Part shown: positions 879-19,834 of the stretch, piece by piece | Numbering within the stretch: the first letter of the stretch is position 1 | Layout of the letters: each line of letters starts with the position of its first letter | DNA from: a virus | Length of the DNA: 20,472 bases | IMG/VR virus record: IMGVR_UViG_3300010883_000664 | Coordinates: 1 to 20,472 of that record | Reading direction: 5' to 3' (one strand) | Notes under the pieces: generated by a model | The model's database searches: none | What the model was told of the DNA's origin: nothing | Seen by the model: the letters and a program-made list of their open reading frames with translations, nothing else | Translations under genes and position numbers: made by a program

Positions 879-1592
879 ATGAGTAAGGCAATTGTACCTA
901 TAAGTGGAGGCATAGACTCTAGTGTAGTTTTGAAGATCGCGCACTCCGAAGGTCATGAAGTACATGCAATTAGCTACAATTACGGTCAGCGACATGACAA
1001 AGAACTCGCATGCGCCGGGTTACAGACTGCAAATACTAGTTGCGCAACTCACCAGTATATTAGTCTAGGATTTTTCAGCGACATAGTACCTACTAGTTCG
1101 CTAACTTGTGCAGATATTGATGTAGCTAAAACAAGAGATGTCCTAGGCGACCCACAAACCGTTAATTATGTACCTAATCGAAATATGATGTTATTATCAA
1201 TCTGCACCGCGTACGCGGAATCAGTTGGTGCTGAGGTAGTATATCATGGTGCCGCTCTTGTCGATAGCCAAGCCGGCTTTTGGGATGGTTCAAAAGAATT
1301 CCTAGAAGCTATTAATAGTATAAATGCCCTTAACCGGAAGTGCAGAGTCCGGATAGAAGCTCCATTGATATCATTATCCAAGAGAGAGATAATAGAGAAA
1401 GGTATTGATATGGGTGTATATTTTAGTGACACATGGACTTGCTATGAAGGTAAGAAGGAGGCATGCGGTGAGTGTACAGCATGCAGCTCTAGAATTAAAG
1501 GGTTCATAGACGCTGGGTACATAGACCCGGTACCTTATAGTATATCTATACCATGGCAAAGGTACAAGTGCAAGGAGGTACCATGCCGCTAA
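879..1592 (+). CDS. queC: QueC-like 7-deazaguanine synthase
   Basis: A 237-residue member of the QueC branch of ATP-pyrophosphatases. Visible features are the PP-loop SGGIDSS at residues 9-15, NYGQRH near 34-39, VPNRN near 98-102 (QueC usually has V-x-GRN) and the C-terminal zinc site Cys188, Cys196, Cys199, Cys202 (C-x7-C-x2-C-x2-C). QueC adenylates 7-carboxy-7-deazaguanine and uses ammonia to make first the 7-amido compound, then preQ0. In phages it feeds queuosine-type DNA or tRNA modification. The family-typical SGYPDCR loop is replaced here by AGFWDGSKEF (132-141), which may alter substrate or product. The start is fixed because the PP-loop begins at residue 9. A promoter lies directly upstream. 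The gene overlaps the next by 10 bases. A glutamine amidotransferase three genes downstream could supply ammonia. Confidence 0.9.
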   Translation: MSKAIVPISGGIDSSVVLKIAHSEGHEVHAISYNYGQRHDKELACAGLQTANTSCATHQYISLGFFSDIVPTSSLTCADIDVAKTRDVLGDPQTVNYVPNRNMMLLSICTAYAESVGAEVVYHGAALVDSQAGFWDGSKEFLEAINSINALNRKCRVRIEAPLISLSKREIIEKGIDMGVYFSDTWTCYEGKKEACGECTACSSRIKGFIDAGYIDPVPYSISIPWQRYKCKEVPCR

Positions 1593-1801
1593 TAGGTAAC
1601 CGCCGGTTACAGATGCTAAATGCTAGAGGTTGGTTTTGTTTAGCACTATCCGGAGTGAATCTGGTTATAGCCTTCGTCTTTGCTACACACGCTAGCTGGT
1701 GGTGTGTTGTTAGTCTATCTCTCAGCTTCATGCTGTGGTTAGGTGTGTATGACCCGAAAAATTTAAAACTTACAGATGACAATGAACAATCTAATAAATA
1801 G
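1583..1801 (+). CDS. small two-helix membrane protein
   Basis: A 72-residue protein starting MPLIGNRRL. Two hydrophobic segments (about residues 17-37 and 39-56) are joined by a very short turn with Trp-Trp, and the C-terminus is polar and acidic; a hairpin in the inner membrane is likely. I chose the ATG at 1583 over the in-frame ATG at 1553 because AAGGAGG lies four bases before it, the best Shine-Dalgarno in the window, although it sits within Lys-Glu codons of queC. Translation is probably coupled to queC, which ends at 1592. Function unknown. Confidence 0.6.
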   Translation: MPLIGNRRLQMLNARGWFCLALSGVNLVIAFVFATHASWWCVVSLSLSFMLWLGVYDPKNLKLTDDNEQSNK

Positions 1802-2045
1802 GCGAGCAGTACGAAAACTGGCTCTAGTAATAGCTAACGAGATGCATCCACAAAAAACGATGTCGGATGAGTATGTTGATGCCTCCGGAAGGACGTGGAA
1901 CTACGGTAGAGCTTTGGCTTCCTCTGCTAACAAAAAATATAAACAGGTGAGCATATCTTTCCTAGAGCATATAAACGGCATGGTTCGAGTTGAAGTAGAG
2001 AAATATATTAAAAAGAATCCACCTAGGGGAGCGACAGTTAAGTAA
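1776..2045 (+). CDS. small basic protein, unknown function
   Basis: An 89-residue protein with a basic N-terminal helix (NRRAVRKLALVIANEM), a YVDASGRTWNYGRAL segment and a C-terminal helix FLEHINGMVRVEVEKYIKKNPP. The FLE-x-hydrophobic-x-x-x-V layout faintly recalls small histone-fold-like DNA-binding domains, but I cannot support a function. ATG codons at 1776 and 1782 are both possible starts. It overlaps the membrane-protein gene by about 20 bases, and its TAA shares a base with the ATG of the dCMP deaminase, so it belongs to the same transcript. Confidence 0.65.
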   Translation: MTMNNLINRRAVRKLALVIANEMHPQKTMSDEYVDASGRTWNYGRALASSANKKYKQVSISFLEHINGMVRVEVEKYIKKNPPRGATVK

Positions 2046-2461
2046 TGCCATCTACAGAGACACTAGACCGGACTTATTTAGAGTTAGCTAGAGTCTGGTC
2101 TCAATTATCACCTGCACAGAGGATGAAGGTGGGTTGCTTGATTGTTAAGGATAATATGATTATTAGTGATGGGTATAACGGAACACCCTCCGGGTTCGAT
2201 AATACATGTGAGGGAGAGGACGGTAAAACGTTAACGGAAGTTCTGCATGCAGAGTCTAACGCAATAACTAAACTAGCAAAATCTACTCAGTCAAGTTACG
2301 GAGCAACAGTATATATAACATTATCACCTTGCGTTGACTGCGCGAAAATCATGATTCAATCCGGAATAAATCGAGTTGTTTACGGTGAACGTTACCGACA
2401 TGCTGATCGAGGATTGGATCTCTTAGCAAGAGCCGGTATACCGACCATCTTGATATCGTAA
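2045..2461 (+). CDS. dCMP deaminase
   Basis: A 138-residue zinc-dependent deoxycytidylate deaminase. The zinc/catalytic signature is complete: His68-Ala-Glu70 and Pro95-Cys96-x-x-Cys99 (motif TLSPCVDC). GYNGTPSGFDN (43-53) is the characteristic loop of dCMP deaminases of the ComEB/T4 Cd type. The enzyme converts dCMP to dUMP, feeding thymidylate synthesis during phage DNA replication. The protein is shorter than T4 Cd and lacks its extra N-terminal zinc site. The ATG overlaps the preceding stop (TAATG). Within this cluster it probably contributes to nucleotide-pool remodelling alongside base modification. Confidence 0.92.
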   Translation: MPSTETLDRTYLELARVWSQLSPAQRMKVGCLIVKDNMIISDGYNGTPSGFDNTCEGEDGKTLTEVLHAESNAITKLAKSTQSSYGATVYITLSPCVDCAKIMIQSGINRVVYGERYRHADRGLDLLARAGIPTILIS

Positions 2462-2468
2462 CATAGAT

Positions 2469-3128
2469 ATGTGTGGTATATTCGGAAGTTTGGATTTCAC
2501 AACGTATGATCGGCTTTTTACTGCTAATCGAGTACGAGGCAATTTTGCTAGCGGAAGTTTATATGTAGGTGATGATGAGATATATCTCCGTAAGGATGGT
2601 AGTGAGTATACTACTGACGGAGAGCATTTCCGTTGCAATTTATTCAACAAAAACATGTTCCTAGGCCATACACAAGCCCCAACAAGCTCGCAAAGAGATT
2701 GGGCAGCTCACACAACCCATCCGTTCGAGTCCGAGGAGTGGATAGTAGCTCATAATGGTATTCTAGAAAATTATGAGGAGTTGAAAGATAGGTGGTTACC
2801 AAAACATGACAACCCGGTTGACTCTTCAATAATCCCCGCGCTGTTAGATATGCAGTATGTAGGTGATGAAATATACTGCATAGCAGAGGTTATGGGCATG
2901 CTAAAAGGTACATTCGCATGCTGGATATATAGCAACCGCTCTAGAACCGTGTATTTGGTCCGCTCCGGTAGTACGTTGTTTTGCAATATGGAGAATTGCG
3001 TCTTCTCCTCAATCTCAGTAGATGACTGTTACGTACCGGCGGATGAAAACGTTATATATCAACTAACCAAGGAAGGTATAACAAGCGTTGGTAAGTTTGA
3101 GGCAGACAGTCCGTTTTTTATAATATGA
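2469..3128 (+). CDS. class II glutamine amidotransferase (GlmS/AsnB-type domain only)
   Basis: A 219-residue N-terminal-nucleophile amidohydrolase domain with nothing fused to it. Cys2 of MCGIFGS is the expected nucleophile once Met1 is removed. Other glutaminase-site landmarks are VRG (22-24), GHTQAPTS (66-73, equivalent to GHTRWATHG of GlmS), HPF (84-86), AHNGILENYEEL (94-105, oxyanion-hole Asn-Gly) and VDSS (117-120, glutamine-binding Asp). Such domains release ammonia from glutamine for a partner synthase. No isomerase or synthetase domain is present, so the partner must be another protein. QueC, an ammonia-using enzyme in the same operon, is the obvious candidate, since Gat-QueC fusions exist in some phages with deazaguanine DNA. 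The partnership is inference. Its TGA overlaps the next ATG (ATGA). Confidence 0.88.
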   Translation: MCGIFGSLDFTTYDRLFTANRVRGNFASGSLYVGDDEIYLRKDGSEYTTDGEHFRCNLFNKNMFLGHTQAPTSSQRDWAAHTTHPFESEEWIVAHNGILENYEELKDRWLPKHDNPVDSSIIPALLDMQYVGDEIYCIAEVMGMLKGTFACWIYSNRSRTVYLVRSGSTLFCNMENCVFSSISVDDCYVPADENVIYQLTKEGITSVGKFEADSPFFII

Positions 3129-3817
3129 AGCGTTTTTTAATAATTACAGCAACACGACTCCCTCCGGAATCGACTGTACCGCTAACTGAGAGTCTAGCCG
3201 ACATGGTACAGTTCGGGGTAACAACTGAGCATCATCAGGTAATCATTCGCCACGGTAACAATAAGGGCTTACCGGAGATTTATAATCAGTATATAACTAA
3301 AGAGCATTTAGATATATATGAAGGTATTATTTTCGTCCATGATGATGTATATATTGATGATATAAAGTTCCTAGAAAAGCTCCGGAACTGTTTTAAACAA
3401 GGATACTCTGTTGTCGGACTAGCCGGGGCATCCTCAGCCAAGATCGCAAAACCGGCGTTGTGGCATTTAATGTCAGAAAGGCAGAACCAAACCGGTGCAG
3501 TCGCTCATCCATATAAAGATGGTATGTCATATGTAACTACATTCGGACCAACCCCTAAGCGTTGTCTTATAATGGATGGTCTCTACCTAGCTATTAATTG
3601 TAAGAAATTTAAACAGAACCCTGTTAAGTTTGACGAGCAGTTCACGTTTCATCACTATGATTTAGATTTTTGTTTACAGTGTAATAAGAACAAGCATAAA
3701 TTAGTTGCAGTTAACATTAATGTCATTCATAATTCACCAGGACTACTAAAGCCAGAATCTAAAATATTTCTAGATTCGCAAGATAAATTTATTAAAAAAT
3801 ATAATGCCAAAAATTGA
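3125..3817 (+). CDS. glycosyltransferase-like protein (GT-A fold, family-2-like)
   Basis: A 230-residue protein that reads as a small GT-A glycosyltransferase of the StrF/Glyco_tranf_2_5-like type. An early strand MKRFLIITATR and GLPEIYNQYI are followed by IIFVHDDVYIDD (69-79), where His-Asp-Asp-Val replaces the DxD metal/nucleotide-sugar motif. Next come DGLYLAI (151-157) with the acceptor-side acidic region FDEQFTFHHYDLDF (169-182), and a late HNSPG (202-206) that may be a metal or phosphate ligand. Substrate is unknown. Location directly after the amidotransferase (ATGA overlap) makes modification of a DNA base or of a capsid or host surface sugar the main options. It overlaps the helicase gene by 14 bases. 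Fold confidence is moderate to good; role is open. Confidence 0.72.
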   Translation: MKRFLIITATRLPPESTVPLTESLADMVQFGVTTEHHQVIIRHGNNKGLPEIYNQYITKEHLDIYEGIIFVHDDVYIDDIKFLEKLRNCFKQGYSVVGLAGASSAKIAKPALWHLMSERQNQTGAVAHPYKDGMSYVTTFGPTPKRCLIMDGLYLAINCKKFKQNPVKFDEQFTFHHYDLDFCLQCNKNKHKLVAVNINVIHNSPGLLKPESKIFLDSQDKFIKKYNAKN

Positions 3818-10829: not shown

Positions 10830-11865
10830 TGAACTGACCAGTCAATTTTACATCCAACAATTCTTTCAATACGCTGGGTGGCCTAAGTATAATAAATTTA
10901 GCAATGTGTACAACGCATGTTGCCCTATATGTAGAGAGGGTAAGAGTTGGGGGAAGAAGAAACGACTATATTATATGGTCGAATCCGGAAAGGTTTGCTG
11001 TCACAATTGTGGTTGGTACGGTTCTGTTTTAAAGTGGTGTTTAGAGGCTAGTGGAAAGCCTTATGACGAGTTTATAGCGGATGCCGGCGTTGTCGATATC
11101 ACTGATAAGTCTTTCTCTCCTATCATCAAGGCATTAGCGGATCGCCCTGCTCTTCCAGAAGACCCTATTAACATTTTTGATAAATCTCAAATAACATACT
11201 ATCGAAAAACCGGCAGTTGGTCCACTCTTAAGAGTATTATTAGCTTCGTTGTCGGTAGAAGATTACACCGCGCAGTAAATAAACCTAAATCATTGTATGT
11301 AAGCCTAACCGATAAGATACATAAGAATAGATTATGTATACCGTTTACAGATAGAGGTAAAGTAGTACATTATCAAACCAGAGGAGTTTTAGAGGAAGAT
11401 CTAAAAGATCGTCCGAAATATCTATCGAGAGTAAATAGCGAAAAGTCGTTATTTAACATTGATCAAGTAACCGATGATAACGATACTATATACATAACTG
11501 AAGGCCCGCTAGATGCATTTTTCATACCTAATGGAGTCGCAGTCGCCGGTATACAGGAAAAATCTAGATCACAAGCCTTCACTAAGAAGCAACGTGATCA
11601 ATTAGCCGGTTCATGTCTACATAATAGAACATGGTGCCTGGATTCGCAATATTTAGATAGAGCTAGTTACAACAAAACAAAACAGTTAGCGGCCTCTGGA
11701 TTGGCTGTATTTATATGGCCTGCACACGAAGGTAAGCAATATAAAGATTTTAATGATATGTGTATCTCAGCTGAGATCGATAGTATAGATACTAAATGGG
11801 TAGATGAAAACACATATACAGGTCAGTCCGCCCTCCTGCTACTCTCGCAAATCAATCTAAATTAG
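10822..11865 (+). CDS. 61: gp61-like DNA primase
   Basis: A 347-residue DnaG-type primase matching T4 gp61 in size (342). The N-terminal zinc ribbon uses Cys34/Cys37 (CCPIC) and Cys60/Cys63 (CCHNC, followed by GWYG). A helical link precedes the TOPRIM core: YITEGPLDAFFIP (224-236) supplies the catalytic Glu, and WCLDSQYLDR (271-280) supplies the paired Asp motif. It synthesises short RNA primers on the lagging strand while bound to gp41. Its stop overlaps the stop of the convergent minus-strand gene by 4 bases, with no terminator between them. Confidence 0.93.
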   Translation: MTNELTSQFYIQQFFQYAGWPKYNKFSNVYNACCPICREGKSWGKKKRLYYMVESGKVCCHNCGWYGSVLKWCLEASGKPYDEFIADAGVVDITDKSFSPIIKALADRPALPEDPINIFDKSQITYYRKTGSWSTLKSIISFVVGRRLHRAVNKPKSLYVSLTDKIHKNRLCIPFTDRGKVVHYQTRGVLEEDLKDRPKYLSRVNSEKSLFNIDQVTDDNDTIYITEGPLDAFFIPNGVAVAGIQEKSRSQAFTKKQRDQLAGSCLHNRTWCLDSQYLDRASYNKTKQLAASGLAVFIWPAHEGKQYKDFNDMCISAEIDSIDTKWVDENTYTGQSALLLLSQINLN

Positions 11866-12323
11866 ATGTTGCCTTGTGGAGCGGAATTAACAGCGGCTTC
11901 TCTCGCCTTCCGCTCAGCACCTAGGAGATACTGCTTTAGAGCCTCACCCAATGACGATAAGTCTTGCGCGACTCTAGAGATCTTCTTAGACTCACTCCGC
12001 TGAACGTCAGCCATAATACTACTACAATCCGCTCTATTGAGCTCGTAGTTCATAGAGCTTGGTTGTAACCCGTTGAGATGCTCGATAAAATCTTCAATTT
12101 GCGTGATCCACTGGTTCAGCTTCGTAGTCGCGCTGGATACTTGCCCGGCTTCGCCAAAACCTGCCGGATTATCCGGAACATCGTTAAACGCTTCCGGCGG
12201 TGTATCAGAATCTAGTCCATTGACTAGAGCTTCCTCATCACCATCAACTCCTGGAGGTGGTCCCTCTAGGTCGTCTTGCTCGATTAAGATCCTCTCAAAT
12301 TGCTTTTTAAATATAGAACTCAT
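11862..12323 (-). CDS. putative virion-associated protein with capsid-targeting-like N-terminus
   Basis: A 153-residue protein, unknown family. The first 16 residues, SIFKKQFERILIEQ after the start Met-Ser, form an amphipathic helix ending L-I-E, the (L/I)-x-E signature cut by T4-type prohead protease gp21. A disordered acidic/proline segment follows (DDLEGPPPGVDGDEE...), then a helical domain with KLNQWITQIEDFIEHLNG and RSESKKISRVAQDLSSLGEALKQYLLGAERK. The gene is 14 bases downstream of the tubulin-like gene and shares its late promoter. I infer a protein carried into the prohead and trimmed; a scaffold-like role is possible. The assignment rests on the peptide pattern only. Confidence 0.68.
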   Translation of the reverse strand: MSSIFKKQFERILIEQDDLEGPPPGVDGDEEALVNGLDSDTPPEAFNDVPDNPAGFGEAGQVSSATTKLNQWITQIEDFIEHLNGLQPSSMNYELNRADCSSIMADVQRSESKKISRVAQDLSSLGEALKQYLLGAERKAREAAVNSAPQGNI

Positions 12324-12337
12324 CCTACTAATACTTA

Positions 12338-13573
12338 TTAAATGTTACCCAATCTTTTAAGGTCATCCAGCTTTCCGTTAGGTTTACCAATGCCCCCGAC
12401 TGTCGTGAATACATTCAACCCAGGTTTTGAGCCTCTATATATGCCTCGATGCACTGTGCTGTTCGGCTGCAACAGTCTGATAAACTGCTCAAACGCGTAG
12501 TCTAAGAAATCTTGAGGTATATCATTTAGAACCTCTTGAGAGCCTATAATACATGCCGCAGCTTTATCCCCGGTGCTCAGATCAATTCCACCAGCTAGGA
12601 TGTTTTGCTTAAGGTTATCTCTAACAGCATAGCTGATATCAGTCTCATCCTTCCACTCTGTAATATTCGTCGCACCGAGTACCATCAAACCAGAATCTAG
12701 CACTGTTTGATAATCTGCTGCATCAAAAGATGAATAGTGACTCTGTTTGTTGACTATAGTGTTAAATAGGTGAAATAGTGAACATGTAGATAAGTTAGCC
12801 GTTTGCCAAAATCTATCAACAGCAAGGCCTGGATACACGGAGCTTATTTTCTCGTTATCGATTAAGATTAGAGGTGATAGAATACCATCCTCAACCAACG
12901 CCCATGCTTGCTGTAAAGTCTTATAAGCATTTTCGTTAACTTTAGAACCTTCAGATCTCTTAGGTAGTGCTAGTATACCACCTACCTTATTGGTTGTTAC
13001 CCCTAGAGTCCGCTGAAGTTCGTAAGCTGTCTTAACTAGCCCGGCGAATGTCCCGGCACCTGTACCGCCTCCACCACCAGCACATACCATAATCCGGTCA
13101 ACATCTTCCCCGAAACTTTTCTTCATGAAATCTAGCACATCTTCCTTCCGCTCATCATATATACGCTCACCAACTTTAGGATTCTTACCTGCACCGCCAC
13201 CGCCGATGTTCAACTTCCGCGGCAAATTAACTGTGTCTAAATCTTGCTGTGCAGTGTTTATAGCGCACACTCGACCGTATCCGATCTTATAAAAAGTCTC
13301 CGCTATCCGTGAACCACCTTGCCCAGCACCTATAAATGCAAACTTATAACCACCCTCGAACTTATCCTTAATCTCAACCTTCTTCTTAACCGGAGGTGGA
13401 ATCATAATATCACCGATGTCCGCATCATAGTCACCGTATATGTTATCCATATCGATACCTTGATCAGTTTCCTCATTTGCGATCTCTTGTGTATTCTCAG
13501 GAGTCGCGGCTGTGTCTCCACCACCGAACACGTTCCCGGCGGAATTACCTATTATGGTTGTTTTGTCGTTCAT
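12338..13573 (-). CDS. tubulin/FtsZ-superfamily GTPase
   Basis: A 411-residue protein with the full set of tubulin-superfamily landmarks. FAFIGAGQGGSRIAETF (79-94) is the T1 nucleotide loop and INTAQQDLDTV (105-115) is T3-like. The tubulin signature CAGGGGGTGAGT (164-175) contacts GTP phosphates, and LILIDNEKI (235-243) matches the FtsZ NDKLL base-contact strand. SFDAADYQTVL (282-292) matches the T7 synergy loop NxDFADVRTVM, with both acidic residues (Asp284, Asp287) kept. Retention of T7 predicts GTP hydrolysis on polymerisation. An acidic, Gly-rich N-terminal extension of about 70 residues precedes the GTPase domain. I use the ATG at 13573 rather than the longer frame because the late box and the divergent gene occupy the upstream region. 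In jumbo phages PhuZ filaments position the replication nucleus; the role here, in a late operon, is unknown. Confidence 0.9.
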   Translation of the reverse strand: MNDKTTIIGNSAGNVFGGGDTAATPENTQEIANEETDQGIDMDNIYGDYDADIGDIMIPPPVKKKVEIKDKFEGGYKFAFIGAGQGGSRIAETFYKIGYGRVCAINTAQQDLDTVNLPRKLNIGGGGAGKNPKVGERIYDERKEDVLDFMKKSFGEDVDRIMVCAGGGGGTGAGTFAGLVKTAYELQRTLGVTTNKVGGILALPKRSEGSKVNENAYKTLQQAWALVEDGILSPLILIDNEKISSVYPGLAVDRFWQTANLSTCSLFHLFNTIVNKQSHYSSFDAADYQTVLDSGLMVLGATNITEWKDETDISYAVRDNLKQNILAGGIDLSTGDKAAACIIGSQEVLNDIPQDFLDYAFEQFIRLLQPNSTVHRGIYRGSKPGLNVFTTVGGIGKPNGKLDDLKRLGNI

Positions 13574-13598
13574 AGAAATATTTATTAGATTTGATAAG

Positions 13599-13606
13599 TA
13601 TTTATA
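13599..13606 (-). promoter_or_regulatory. T4-type late promoter for the tubulin-like operon
   Basis: TATAAATA followed by CT on the minus strand, matching the T4 late consensus TATAAATACT. The predicted start leaves a leader of about 20 bases before the ATG at 13573. A second, weaker AATAAATA (13579-13586, minus) lies 5 bases before that ATG. Confidence 0.72.
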
Positions 13607-13607
13607 G

Positions 13608-14018
13608 ATGTCAAAAAAGAAAAAATTTAAATTCGACCTCTTAGCCGAGGACTTAACCATGGGAAGTACCTCTCAGAACTTCACCGGTGGGCAGGTCGGA
13701 CAAGGCTCCGGTCAATCAAAACCTCAAGCTATGTCTATAATGGATCTGATCGACACCCAGACAACCTTAAAAGACCGACAACGCGATGCTCCTGGAGCAT
13801 TACCTTACCCAGTAAGCCATAGTACTTTACAGAGATTCGCAGAAGCATACTTCGCTATACAGGACGTCAAAAATACTTTGAGACGAACGGTAGATAACCC
13901 TCTAATATCATCTGATAAAAATAAAAAAGCAGCGGTTATGAAGATGTATAATAAATGTCTTAAGCTGCAGAAGTTGATTGAGATGTGTGGTAACGATTTA
14001 GACACACTGACACCGTAG
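13608..14018 (+). CDS. small protein with capsid-targeting-like N-terminus, unknown function
   Basis: A 136-residue protein, divergent from the tubulin-like gene with only 34 bases between the ATGs. The N-terminus KKKKFKFDLLAED ends in L-A-E, compatible with a T4 prohead-protease site. A Gly/Ser/Gln-rich disordered linker (to about residue 40) leads to a helical domain including TLQRFAEAYFAIQDVKNTLRR and MYNKCLKLQKLIEMC. No Shine-Dalgarno. On the plus strand GATAAGTA (13593-13600) is a poor late-box match (6 of 8), so its promoter is uncertain. A virion or prohead protein is the working guess. Confidence 0.68.
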   Translation: MSKKKKFKFDLLAEDLTMGSTSQNFTGGQVGQGSGQSKPQAMSIMDLIDTQTTLKDRQRDAPGALPYPVSHSTLQRFAEAYFAIQDVKNTLRRTVDNPLISSDKNKKAAVMKMYNKCLKLQKLIEMCGNDLDTLTP

Positions 14019-15513: not shown

Positions 15514-16242
15514 TCAATAGTCTCCGTATACGTGATCTTGGTCTAGGAATACTCTATAGTCATATACCGGAACCGATATATCATCAACATCCCCAGTGTA
15601 CGATTTAATAATTATAGGCTCATTGATACCTCCCGGCAACCGCCCCTCTAGTAGGTCATCATTAACTTGACCTAATGGACCTTCCACTGGCGCCCCCGGT
15701 TCATAGCTATAATCGAATCGTTTCGCGGTCATCAACCAGACGTAATGTCCTTGAAGTTGATTTATTTGGCTAACGTCTTGATCAACGCGTTGAGTTATCT
15801 CGAAGATCTTCCCTGTCCTCCCACCCGGTCTCGTCCGGCCATACTCCTCTAGTTCAAAAATATCACCGGCTTTTGGCTCTGCTCCCTCTCCAAAGTTCTT
15901 AACATAACTTGGTATGCTGATTATTGCAGTCACCTCATCATCTGACATAATACCAAATTGAGATAGTGAAATCGCATTTTCGTTGAGATTCAATACCACA
16001 ATAACCTTCACCGGCTCTGTAAAAAGCTGAGTTGGATGTTCTCCGTATATGAAATCTTGCCCGGTCAAGCTATGATTATTAACATAGTAGTTAACCTCTA
16101 CACCGTAATGGTTGATCTGCTCTTCCCACCACTTAGTATAGTTGTGCCTCTCATGCGGATTAATATCTTTATTAAGATATCTGACAGGTATATCCGAAAA
16201 CGGCATCGCCGGCACAGACTTATCTTCTATATTTTTACTCAT
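15514..16242 (-). CDS. 14: gp14-like neck (head completion) protein
   Basis: A 242-residue protein similar to T4 gp14 (256 residues). Shared order of features: GVEVNYYVNN (T4 GVECYYVPRE), DFIYGEHPTQLFTEPVKV (T4 DLIFGEDLKNKFTKAWKF), QFGIMSDDEVTAIISI (T4 NFGMQVQDEVTLSIN), EPKAGDIFEL (T4 EPKEGDLIYF) and AKRFDYSYEPG (T4 AGKFIYSGEE). Gp14 joins gp13 at the portal vertex of the filled head so that the tail can attach. It lies on the strand opposite to terminase, tube and sheath. Its ATG overlaps the TGA of the upstream small gene (ATGA). Confidence 0.88.
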   Translation of the reverse strand: MSKNIEDKSVPAMPFSDIPVRYLNKDINPHERHNYTKWWEEQINHYGVEVNYYVNNHSLTGQDFIYGEHPTQLFTEPVKVIVVLNLNENAISLSQFGIMSDDEVTAIISIPSYVKNFGEGAEPKAGDIFELEEYGRTRPGGRTGKIFEITQRVDQDVSQINQLQGHYVWLMTAKRFDYSYEPGAPVEGPLGQVNDDLLEGRLPGGINEPIIIKSYTGDVDDISVPVYDYRVFLDQDHVYGDY

Positions 16243-17511: not shown

Positions 17512-19218
17512 ATGACCGAAAAATCGACAAAATACTATCTAGGAAACGAAAACTTACCTAATCAACATGCGACCCATGAGTACACCCCAGAACGCGTCGC
17601 TCAACTGAAGAAAGCTCAGAAAAACCTATTATACTTCGCTTCCAACTTCTTTTATATTGTTAATGTGGACTCCGGCCGGGAGGTTATTGAGTTAAGAAAT
17701 TATCAAAAGCGAGTGATGCGTCTTATGAGAGATAACCGATTTGTTATTGTGATGTCTTCGCGACAATCCGGTAAGACTACTATGATGACAATATACGCTC
17801 TATGGGTCGCCTGTTTTAATGCAGATCAGAAGATTGTACTTGTAGCCAATAAGGAAAGTACAGCTAAAGACATATTTGGTCGTGTCCGGTTAGCGTATGA
17901 AGAACTGCCTAACTGGGTAAAGCCCGGGGTCATCGAGTATGGTAAAGAGTCTATGGTGTTAGCCAATGGTAGTAGAATAGGTATTAGTACCACCACCGGT
18001 ACAGCAGCTAGAGGTATGAGCTGTAATGTATTGATATTAGATGAGCTAGCGTTTATTGAACCGTATATTGTAGATGAATTCTGGAAATCAGTGTATCCGA
18101 CAATTTCTAGCTCAAAGAAAAGTAAGATATTTATAGCTAGCACACCTAACGGTACAGAGAATCTGTTCTACAAACTATATACTGGCGCTGTTCAAGATGC
18201 GAACGGTTGGATCGCGGATAAGGTAACCTGGGAGCAGGTACCTGGTCGTGATGAGAAGTGGAAGCAAGATAATATCAAACTTCTAGGTAGTAAAGAAGCC
18301 TTTGATCAAGAGTTTGGTTGTGAGTTTATTCAAGCCGGCGATAATATGATGGATGAAAACCTCTTACTCCGGTTACAAGCCTCATGTAGAGAGCCTATGC
18401 ATTTACTAGAAGAAGGTAGGTATAAGATCTGGGACGAACCTGCTCCTGAGAAGCTATATGTTGTTGGTGTTGATGTGTCAGAAGGCGTTGGAGCCGCCGC
18501 CTCTTGTGTTCAAGTCATGGATGTTACTGATTTAAATAATATTCAACAAGTTGCATGCTATCATGATGACAAAATAAGCCCGTATGATTTCGTGTCTAAG
18601 TTAGATGAGATATTAAAACATTGGGGCCAGCCACCGGCGTTAATAGAGAGAAACAACTGCGGCGGTCAGGTAGTCGATTTATTAAAAAATAATTTTAGGT
18701 ACGATAATATTGTAACATATGCAGGTAACATTAAAACAAAAGGCCGTCTAGGTATAATATCTCATACTAACACCAAGTATAGAGGAGTTATTAATATGAG
18801 GTACTGGTTACATGAAAGCAAATGCGTAGTTGTTAGAGACGAAAAACTGCTGAAGGAACTAAAAACCTTCGTTCGCCATAATAACGGGACATGGGGCCAT
18901 GTAAAAGCCTCCGGAGTATTTGATGATCGAGTGATAGGCTTGATGTGGGCAGTGTTTATTTTAAATGAAGATCTAGTAGATACATACTATAACGTAACCG
19001 CCACCGGTACTAACGGTAAGCCTATTGCCATCACCGGTTCGGATTATAGCGGTGAATTCGCAGATTTAAATGTAGATGATTCCGGTGACGCAGCTCCGTT
19101 TGTGTTTAATAACATAAGTATGGATACGATGTTTGGAGAAAATTTAGAAGATAATCAAGGAGTCACGTACTTACGAGAGCAAGGCTGGACGAGCGGCCCG
19201 GGCGCGACCTATAAATAG
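17512..19218 (+). CDS. 17: gp17-like terminase large subunit
   Basis: A 568-residue DNA-packaging motor. ATPase domain: NYQKRVM (63-69, adenine-contact region), Walker A SSRQSGKTT (82-90, T4 has SRQLGKTT), Walker B VLILDELAFI (173-182) and coupling motif ASTPNG (209-214). RNase H-fold nuclease domain: GVDVSEG (319-325, Asp321), IERNNCGG (378-385, Glu379) and FDDRVIGLMWA (470-480). Together these translocate DNA into the prohead and cut it when full. No small-terminase gene is recognisable immediately upstream, where T4 has gene 16. No Shine-Dalgarno precedes the ATG. The last codons contain TATAAATA, a possible late box for the next gene. Confidence 0.96.
   Translation: MTEKSTKYYLGNENLPNQHATHEYTPERVAQLKKAQKNLLYFASNFFYIVNVDSGREVIELRNYQKRVMRLMRDNRFVIVMSSRQSGKTTMMTIYALWVACFNADQKIVLVANKESTAKDIFGRVRLAYEELPNWVKPGVIEYGKESMVLANGSRIGISTTTGTAARGMSCNVLILDELAFIEPYIVDEFWKSVYPTISSSKKSKIFIASTPNGTENLFYKLYTGAVQDANGWIADKVTWEQVPGRDEKWKQDNIKLLGSKEAFDQEFGCEFIQAGDNMMDENLLLRLQASCREPMHLLEEGRYKIWDEPAPEKLYVVGVDVSEGVGAAASCVQVMDVTDLNNIQQVACYHDDKISPYDFVSKLDEILKHWGQPPALIERNNCGGQVVDLLKNNFRYDNIVTYAGNIKTKGRLGIISHTNTKYRGVINMRYWLHESKCVVVRDEKLLKELKTFVRHNNGTWGHVKASGVFDDRVIGLMWAVFILNEDLVDTYYNVTATGTNGKPIAITGSDYSGEFADLNVDDSGDAAPFVFNNISMDTMFGENLEDNQGVTYLREQGWTSGPGATYK
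19210..19217 (+). promoter_or_regulatory. late box overlapping the terminase stop
   Basis: An exact TATAAATA two bases before the ATG at 19220. With normal T4 spacing the transcript would start inside codon 2, so it could only serve the next in-frame ATG at 19262 (Met15). It also encodes the terminase C-terminus, so it may be coincidental. Confidence 0.42.
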
Positions 19219-19219
19219 T

Positions 19220-19834
19220 ATGGGAGATACCGCAACAGCTAGAGCTTCTGCATACGATCCGATGGATCAAGCAGTATTAAACAAATCACGCGCTGATAAG
19301 TTCGTCATGATATTACCTATGCCGAAAGCTCTGCGAGAGATTAACGTATCCAAAGAACGTGCAAATGATAGTATCATGCAAAATGCGTTGCAATTTAGCG
19401 TCTATGGAGTCGTTGCCCCAGCAATAGTCGTAGATCCGGTAGAGATACCCTTCAGTGGTCAATCCTTTAACTTTACATCGTTCAAGCGTCCAGATTATAG
19501 TAACGTCCGGGTCGATTTTAAATTAGATAACCAGTACAACAATTACTGGGTTATATATAAATGGATAAATCTGCTAAACAATTTTAAAGAAGGTTTCTTC
19601 TATGCCGAACGACCGGGATTACGGAACGGCCCGGGGTTAGAACCGTATGCTGAGTACGCGACTGATATAACAGTTTACGGGTTAGATGAGTATAATGAAA
19701 AACGTATTCAGTTCACATATGTCGGCGCACATCCTATATCCCTAGGGGAGATAAATTACAATTATCAAGCATCAGATGAACTAGTCTCTAATTTTGAATT
19801 CGCGTTTAGTCAACTACACACAAAGTTATTATGA
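19220..19834 (+). CDS. tail tube-fold protein (gp19-like)
   Basis: A 204-residue protein with the tail-tube pattern: ADKFVMILPMP near the N-terminus, FSVYGVVAPAIVVDPVEIPFSGQSFNF (beta strands and loop as in gp19), FKRPDYSNVRVDFKLDNQYNNYWVIYKWINLL (T4 gp19: TVTVMNDE...F-DW), then ATDITVYGLDEYNEKRIQFTYVGAHPISLGEINYNYQASDELVSNFEFAFS. The last part parallels T4 IEIKGLWPTNVGELQLDWDSNNEIQTFEVTLAL. It would form the inner tube ring around which the sheath contracts. T4 gp19 is 163 residues and follows gp18; here the gene precedes the sheath gene. It may be the major tube protein or a tube-fold paralogue such as a tube cap. Met15 (19262) is an alternative start. Confidence 0.76.
   Translation: MGDTATARASAYDPMDQAVLNKSRADKFVMILPMPKALREINVSKERANDSIMQNALQFSVYGVVAPAIVVDPVEIPFSGQSFNFTSFKRPDYSNVRVDFKLDNQYNNYWVIYKWINLLNNFKEGFFYAERPGLRNGPGLEPYAEYATDITVYGLDEYNEKRIQFTYVGAHPISLGEINYNYQASDELVSNFEFAFSQLHTKLL

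Follow-up and report, generated by a model that had tools for sequence, protein, structure and literature searches.

A complete tubulin-family GTPase behind a predicted late promoter in an uncultivated T4-like phage

Work on phage tubulins has dealt with two settings: PhuZ, from jumbo phages that form a nucleus, and TubZ, from a plasmid prophage. A tubulin gene in the uncultivated virus record IMGVR_UViG_3300010883_000664 (IMG/VR), a 20 kb fragment of a phage genome that was analyzed over its positions 1–20 472 (the window), raises the question of what such a protein would do in an otherwise T4-like phage. The gene is the first of two in a minus-strand unit that lies behind a T4-type late-promoter box and fills positions 11862–13606. 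An original prediction from the sequence had described a complete tubulin/FtsZ-like GTPase that would act late, by moving proheads, organizing assembly or mixing with host FtsZ; as a whole, this interpretation is partly supported by the analysis reported here.

The tubulin gene (12338–13573, minus strand) begins with an ATG at 13573, has its stop at 12338–12340 and encodes 411 amino acids, of which residues 72–411 form the folded domain. The mechanically called open reading frame starts at 13660 and runs into a divergent gene at 13608; the start was set at 13573 because the relatives begin at the equivalent position. The protein matches the Pfam Tubulin family (PF00091) at 6.6e-11, which is better than the curated cut-off, and phmmer returned structures of FtsZ, RepX/TubZ and CetZ, the top match being Aquifex FtsZ (2e-17). 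The superfamily G-box signature [AG]GG[ST]GxG and the nucleotide loops T1–T6 are present, with GAGQGGSR as the T1 loop and the tubulin signature GGGGGTGAGT in the T4 loop (13052–13069, minus strand; residues 169–174). The T7 hydrolysis loop reads FDAAD within SFDAAD (12713–12727, minus strand; residues 283–287), and its two acids are invariant. The T1, T4, T6 and T7 motifs were kept in all 73 distinct family sequences, as was the FDxxD of T7 that bears the catalytic acids (73/73). AlphaFold models were confident both for the window tubulin [predicted local distance difference test (pLDDT) 83] and for a short relative (pLDDT 89), and the models and structure alignments displayed the two-domain fold joined by helix H7 across residues 72–411. 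Using VIA-align, the window model matched Bacillus cereus TubZ with Z 36.4 (root-mean-square deviation 2.3, 328 aligned), CetZ2 with Z 35.1 and FtsZ with about 31, within a whole range of Z 30–36. On sequence and models, the identification as a complete tubulin/FtsZ GTPase is secure, as originally predicted, and the tubulin fold was borne out by profile search and structure prediction alike.

The gene is under strong purifying selection. The ratio of nonsynonymous to synonymous substitution rates (dN/dS) was 0.018, 0.033 and 0.072 in the tubulin pairs with unsaturated dS; the lowest of these values, against the relative in contig L055, indicates a selected gene rather than a chance frame. Because intact hydrolysis residues are kept under this selection, a working cytomotive filament is predicted.

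Relatives were found in uncultivated viral contigs, with 41 in a single-sequence scan and at least 372 in a profile scan, and each of the larger viral contigs carries one copy. In contig L122 (803–2020) a stop splits the tubulin frame in two, either because this copy has decayed or because of an error in sequencing. A scan of the genomes of 84 980 bacterial and archaeal species yielded only one relative (33% identical), in a metagenome-assembled genome (MAG) of a Candidatus Zymogenaceae bacterium. In the isolated-phage collection the window tubulin (P0001) had no match, and a second family member retrieved only gp138 of Bacillus phage G (26% identical; annotated as FtsZ-like), together with a weak chance-level hit. 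With P0001, this second member, gp138, Escherichia coli FtsZ and phiKZ PhuZ as queries, the family was not found in the isolated phages searched, which agrees with the original view that this is not a routine T4-like gene. Several FtsZ matches in 'phage' records seem to stem from contaminating host sequence and were set aside. The best match among predicted viral structures was UniProt A0A6J5RW92 (E 1e-31, 27% identity), a related protein from an uncultured Caudovirales phage that bears the automatic name 'FtsZ Cell division GTPase'; the annotation itself is therefore not new. This entry was not described in the literature searched, nor was a paper on the family found there, a 2025 paper on chimallin and phuz diversity (PMC12625630) lying outside that literature.

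To place the family, a tree was calculated that contained its members with ten FtsZ proteins, six plasmid TubZ/RepX proteins, five PhuZ proteins and the proteins of phage G and the MAG. In this tree, the phage family formed one clade (Shimodaira–Hasegawa-like approximate likelihood-ratio support 98), as did FtsZ (100) and PhuZ (100), and fell outside the TubZ rows; gp138, the neighborhood of which differs, lay outside the family clade. The deep order is uncertain owing to long branches, and profiles gave a clearer picture. The family profile aligned to TubZ with an hhalign score of 310 (E 3e-43, 25% identity over 327 columns), compared with 97 for FtsZ and 59 for PhuZ, and the family hidden Markov model gave 82–120 bits for plasmid TubZ proteins and 21–42 bits for FtsZ. 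By tree and profile, the family is separate from FtsZ and PhuZ, and its closest kin by profile are plasmid TubZ/RepX, the type III partition proteins of Gram-positive plasmids that also occur in phage c-st; the structural comparison above likewise places TubZ nearest. This sharpens the original prediction, as the protein is neither a PhuZ nor an FtsZ but belongs to a family of its own, with plasmid TubZ as the nearest. The window protein shares the fold, the GTPase loops and both T7 acids with bacterial FtsZ, from which it differs in a T7 asparagine replaced by serine and in a short, variable C-terminus that has no FtsZ tail peptide for partners of the FtsA/ZipA type.

The late-promoter box TATAAATA lies at 13599–13606 (minus strand), 33 nt from the tubulin ATG. 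Contigs L055, L056 and L057 share exactly the sequence CATCTATAAATACTTAT and its spacing with the window, which makes four contigs in all, and the synonymous sites of these three relatives are strongly diverged or saturated. A chance box is ruled out by this conservation of sequence and spacing, and the late promoter of the original prediction stands. Six boxes occur in the window, a bare count that is not significant (7/100 shuffles); four of the six are located within 45 nt upstream of a same-strand gene (P about 2e-5, with gene starts chosen by hand). From the promoter sequence, we infer that the tubulin is expressed late.

The downstream partner gene (11862–12323, minus strand; 153 amino acids) starts 14 nt 3' of the tubulin gene and adjoins it in all four contigs, in keeping with the co-transcribed pair that had been proposed. 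The middle of this protein varies, whereas its N-terminus retains a Phe-rich stretch with hydrophobic-x-E at its end. The resulting pattern, FxxxhLhE, resembles a capsid-targeting peptide, as the original prediction had noted, and would be compatible with the type known from T4. A search for similar N-termini gave 5/255, compared with 0.3% internally, one of the five being a tubulin; this enrichment was set aside as weak.

A disordered, low-confidence stretch of about 25–80 residues precedes the folded domain in every family member. In the window protein it spans 70 residues and is acidic (15 D/E, 5 K/R), as noted in the original prediction; the length proved variable, and it is not the extension as such but a motif of 10 residues inside it (13397–13426, minus strand; residues 50–59) that is conserved. 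This motif, D-h-x-h-P-[DE]-h-x-h-P (for example FDISLPDIPMP), is nearly invariant in the family: in an alignment of 59 sequences the D and the last P were invariant and the first P was present in more than 90%. At the other end, the protein stops just past the last helix, and the family termini are short and variable; a long C-terminal tail of the TubZ adaptor or assembly type was not found in the window tubulin or its relatives. In TubZ and PhuZ, assembly or partner interaction depends on C-terminal tails (PMC3678025; PMC5322520). Since conservation lies at the N-terminus and the C-terminus is short and variable, whereas TubZ and PhuZ use C-terminal tails, its conservation makes the N-terminal peptide the strongest candidate for an element that docks a partner or stabilizes the filament.

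Similar elements occur in two other proteins. The head-closure (neck) protein of the window (15514–16242, minus strand) has D[IV]SxP and YGDY elements at its C-terminal end (DDISVP...DHVYGDY), and the protein directly upstream of the tubulin in phages of the L102 type (L102, 9438–9974) ends in DFTEFESDKIYGDYD...VVDIP. The window tubulin N-terminus also contains YGDY and D-x-x-P elements (13397–13440, minus strand). Perhaps the elements shared by these three proteins constitute a common docking peptide.

The family is carried by two phage lineages. The gene content of the window is T4-like, as had been stated earlier, with UvsX, a DnaB-type helicase, SSB, primase, exonuclease and head-closure homologues, as well as a Gp17-type large terminase (17512–19218, plus strand) that shares 31–37% identity with the terminases of HTVC008M, phiM9, Cr30 and further members of the T4 superfamily, and a tail tube protein (19220–19834, plus strand) with its own TATAAATA box at 19210–19217. 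Records G013, G001, G014 and G019 are also T4-like, and the longer relatives, on contigs of up to 230 kb, carry T4 Gp23 and Gp20. In G013 (locus L125, 230 047 bases) Gp23 is divided between the two contig ends, a pattern that would be expected if this were a complete, circularly permuted T4-like genome of more than 200 kb. In the second and larger group, neither Gp23 nor Gp20 is recognizable, and the terminase shares about 25% identity with that of any isolated phage. The tubulin of this group lies behind a portal-like gene, the portal assignment being weak (PHROG match, 1e-3). The two genes are direct neighbors in 50 of 105 loci and stand at a distance of one to three genes in about 24 others; scaffold- and capsid-like genes are located downstream in the portal-linked loci. 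In L200 and L230 the tubulin is upstream rather than downstream of the portal, but still near.

The notion of a core gene beside every such portal was ruled out, as at least 45 of at least 53 scorable portal relatives, in a sampled portal scan, have no tubulin beside the portal. On the portal tree the presence of the tubulin changed four times, compared with 27.8 times in shuffles. The tubulin is thus, as far as this sample extends, an accessory gene, because most scorable relatives have none beside the portal, yet one that is stably inherited rather than scattered cargo, because so few changes were observed. The T4-like tubulins form one clade (100/99) nested among the portal-linked tubulins (99/96). 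Transfer from the portal-linked lineage to T4-like phages is favored by the tree; reciprocal clades were not rejected (approximately unbiased test, p 0.09).

What the protein may do can now be considered. As a tubulin from a separate phage family that lies nearer to TubZ within the superfamily, it would hydrolyze GTP and form filaments, and it would be made late along with the structural proteins. In infected cells the filaments would treadmill and serve to place or transport either the heads under assembly or the DNA that is to enter them, and the N-terminal peptide would dock a phage partner, replacing the C-terminal tails of TubZ, PhuZ and FtsZ. A job in assembly is suggested by the late promoter and the virion-gene neighbors, with PhuZ, the treadmilling of which transports capsids (PMC7950403; PMC13282480), as the precedent; a role in moving heads may thus be common to both phage-encoded tubulins, although PhuZ belongs to nucleus-forming jumbo phages and the present family to T4-like phages and another lineage. 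From these data we infer polymerization, the cargo and the role of the peptide. The reading that we favor, with somewhat less than even confidence, is a filament driven by GTP that acts late and, while virions are assembled, positions or moves heads or DNA. Several points weigh against it: the sequence is nearest to TubZ, a DNA mover, and not to PhuZ, a capsid mover; the portal relatives that have no tubulin imply that it is dispensable for such heads; the window tubulin is not next to a portal; and the argument draws on sequence, models and gene context. The earlier suggestion of moving proheads or organizing assembly stays a suggestion. A more specific and more doubtful proposal is a third type of phage cytoskeleton, in which a TubZ-derived tubulin docks a portal, neck or prohead protein via its N-terminal peptide and transports heads under assembly in nucleus-free phages, being old in one uncultured lineage and having passed once into T4-like phages. 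If this were true, T4-type head assembly would be cytoskeleton-guided there.

Of the alternatives, the one that survives best, while still rather unlikely, is that the tubulin moves or segregates phage DNA via a diverged DNA adaptor, as TubZ does for plasmids and the plasmid prophage c-st. The profile likeness to plasmid TubZ, far above that to FtsZ or PhuZ, agrees with this, as does the sole relative in a bacterial assembly, in which a TubZ-like gene (L131, 9657–11128) immediately follows a winged-helix TubR-like gene and precedes a kinase-like gene. This locus resembles a partition module, here in a setting other than a Gram-positive plasmid; the solved-structure matches of its winged-helix gene were noise. 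However, the window neighbors of the tubulin are not helix–turn–helix-like, no winged-helix neighbor was found in the window or the phage relatives (a weak test), and the TubR profile, which is weak and could miss a diverged adaptor, found only L131 and no phage relative. Nor was a repeat array found beside the window tubulin, or a set of tubC iterons in the window, although the iteron test gave no hit in the plasmid controls either. Because no TubR is recognizable, the system is probably not a copy of a plasmid partition system, with the reservation that adaptors diverge fast and the TubR profile is weak. The late promoter and the lytic T4-like genome also speak against DNA movement, and the family differs from TubZ/RepX in its conserved N-terminal peptide, its T4-type late promoter or portal neighborhood and the lack of a long C-terminal tail.

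A block of host division, in which the tubulin would co-assemble with the FtsZ of the host or cap it, is improbable. The GTPase domain is FtsZ-like (about 25% identical), and phage inhibitors of FtsZ are known, T7 Gp0.4 being one example (PMC13423816). Nevertheless, the family is far from FtsZ in tree and profile, so that simple co-polymerization, as in the mixing with host FtsZ once proposed, is less likely; furthermore, a poison would need no intact T7 hydrolysis residues, and late timing and strong selection across the entire protein do not suit one.

A structural role, in which head proteins would build the tubulin into the prohead or virion, is very unlikely, since nearby portal and capsid genes, a partner with a capsid-targeting-like N-terminus and the elements common to the tubulin and the head-closure C-terminus are outweighed by a tubulin that itself has no such N-terminus, by the many portal relatives without a tubulin beside the portal and by the fact that no tubulin is known as a virion component.

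A separate and widespread tubulin family, present in T4-like phages and in other uncultured ones, would mean that phage tubulins are not tied to the phage nucleus. Whether filaments drive head assembly or DNA positioning would then become testable in lytic phages that are ordinary in other respects, and the conserved N-terminal peptide offers a concrete handle for finding the partner. Internal skeletons in phage infection may be commoner than the few nucleus-forming giant phages suggest, because this intact tubulin gene is one of hundreds of copies in uncultured phages.

Three further observations were made at these loci. In the portal-linked lineage, a sigma-70 region 2 protein is encoded ahead of the terminase and portal in L034 (1321–2028) and is perhaps a late sigma factor of that lineage. 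In L019, L021, L022, L034, L037 and L038, several unrelated genes near the tubulin start with a short IDFT-x-x-I peptide, which is a recurring N-terminal tag in the same lineage. Finally, positions 879–3817 of the window contain a cluster of QueC-like, deaminase, glutamine amidotransferase-like and glycosyltransferase-like genes, named by reading their translations, that possibly serves DNA-base modification.
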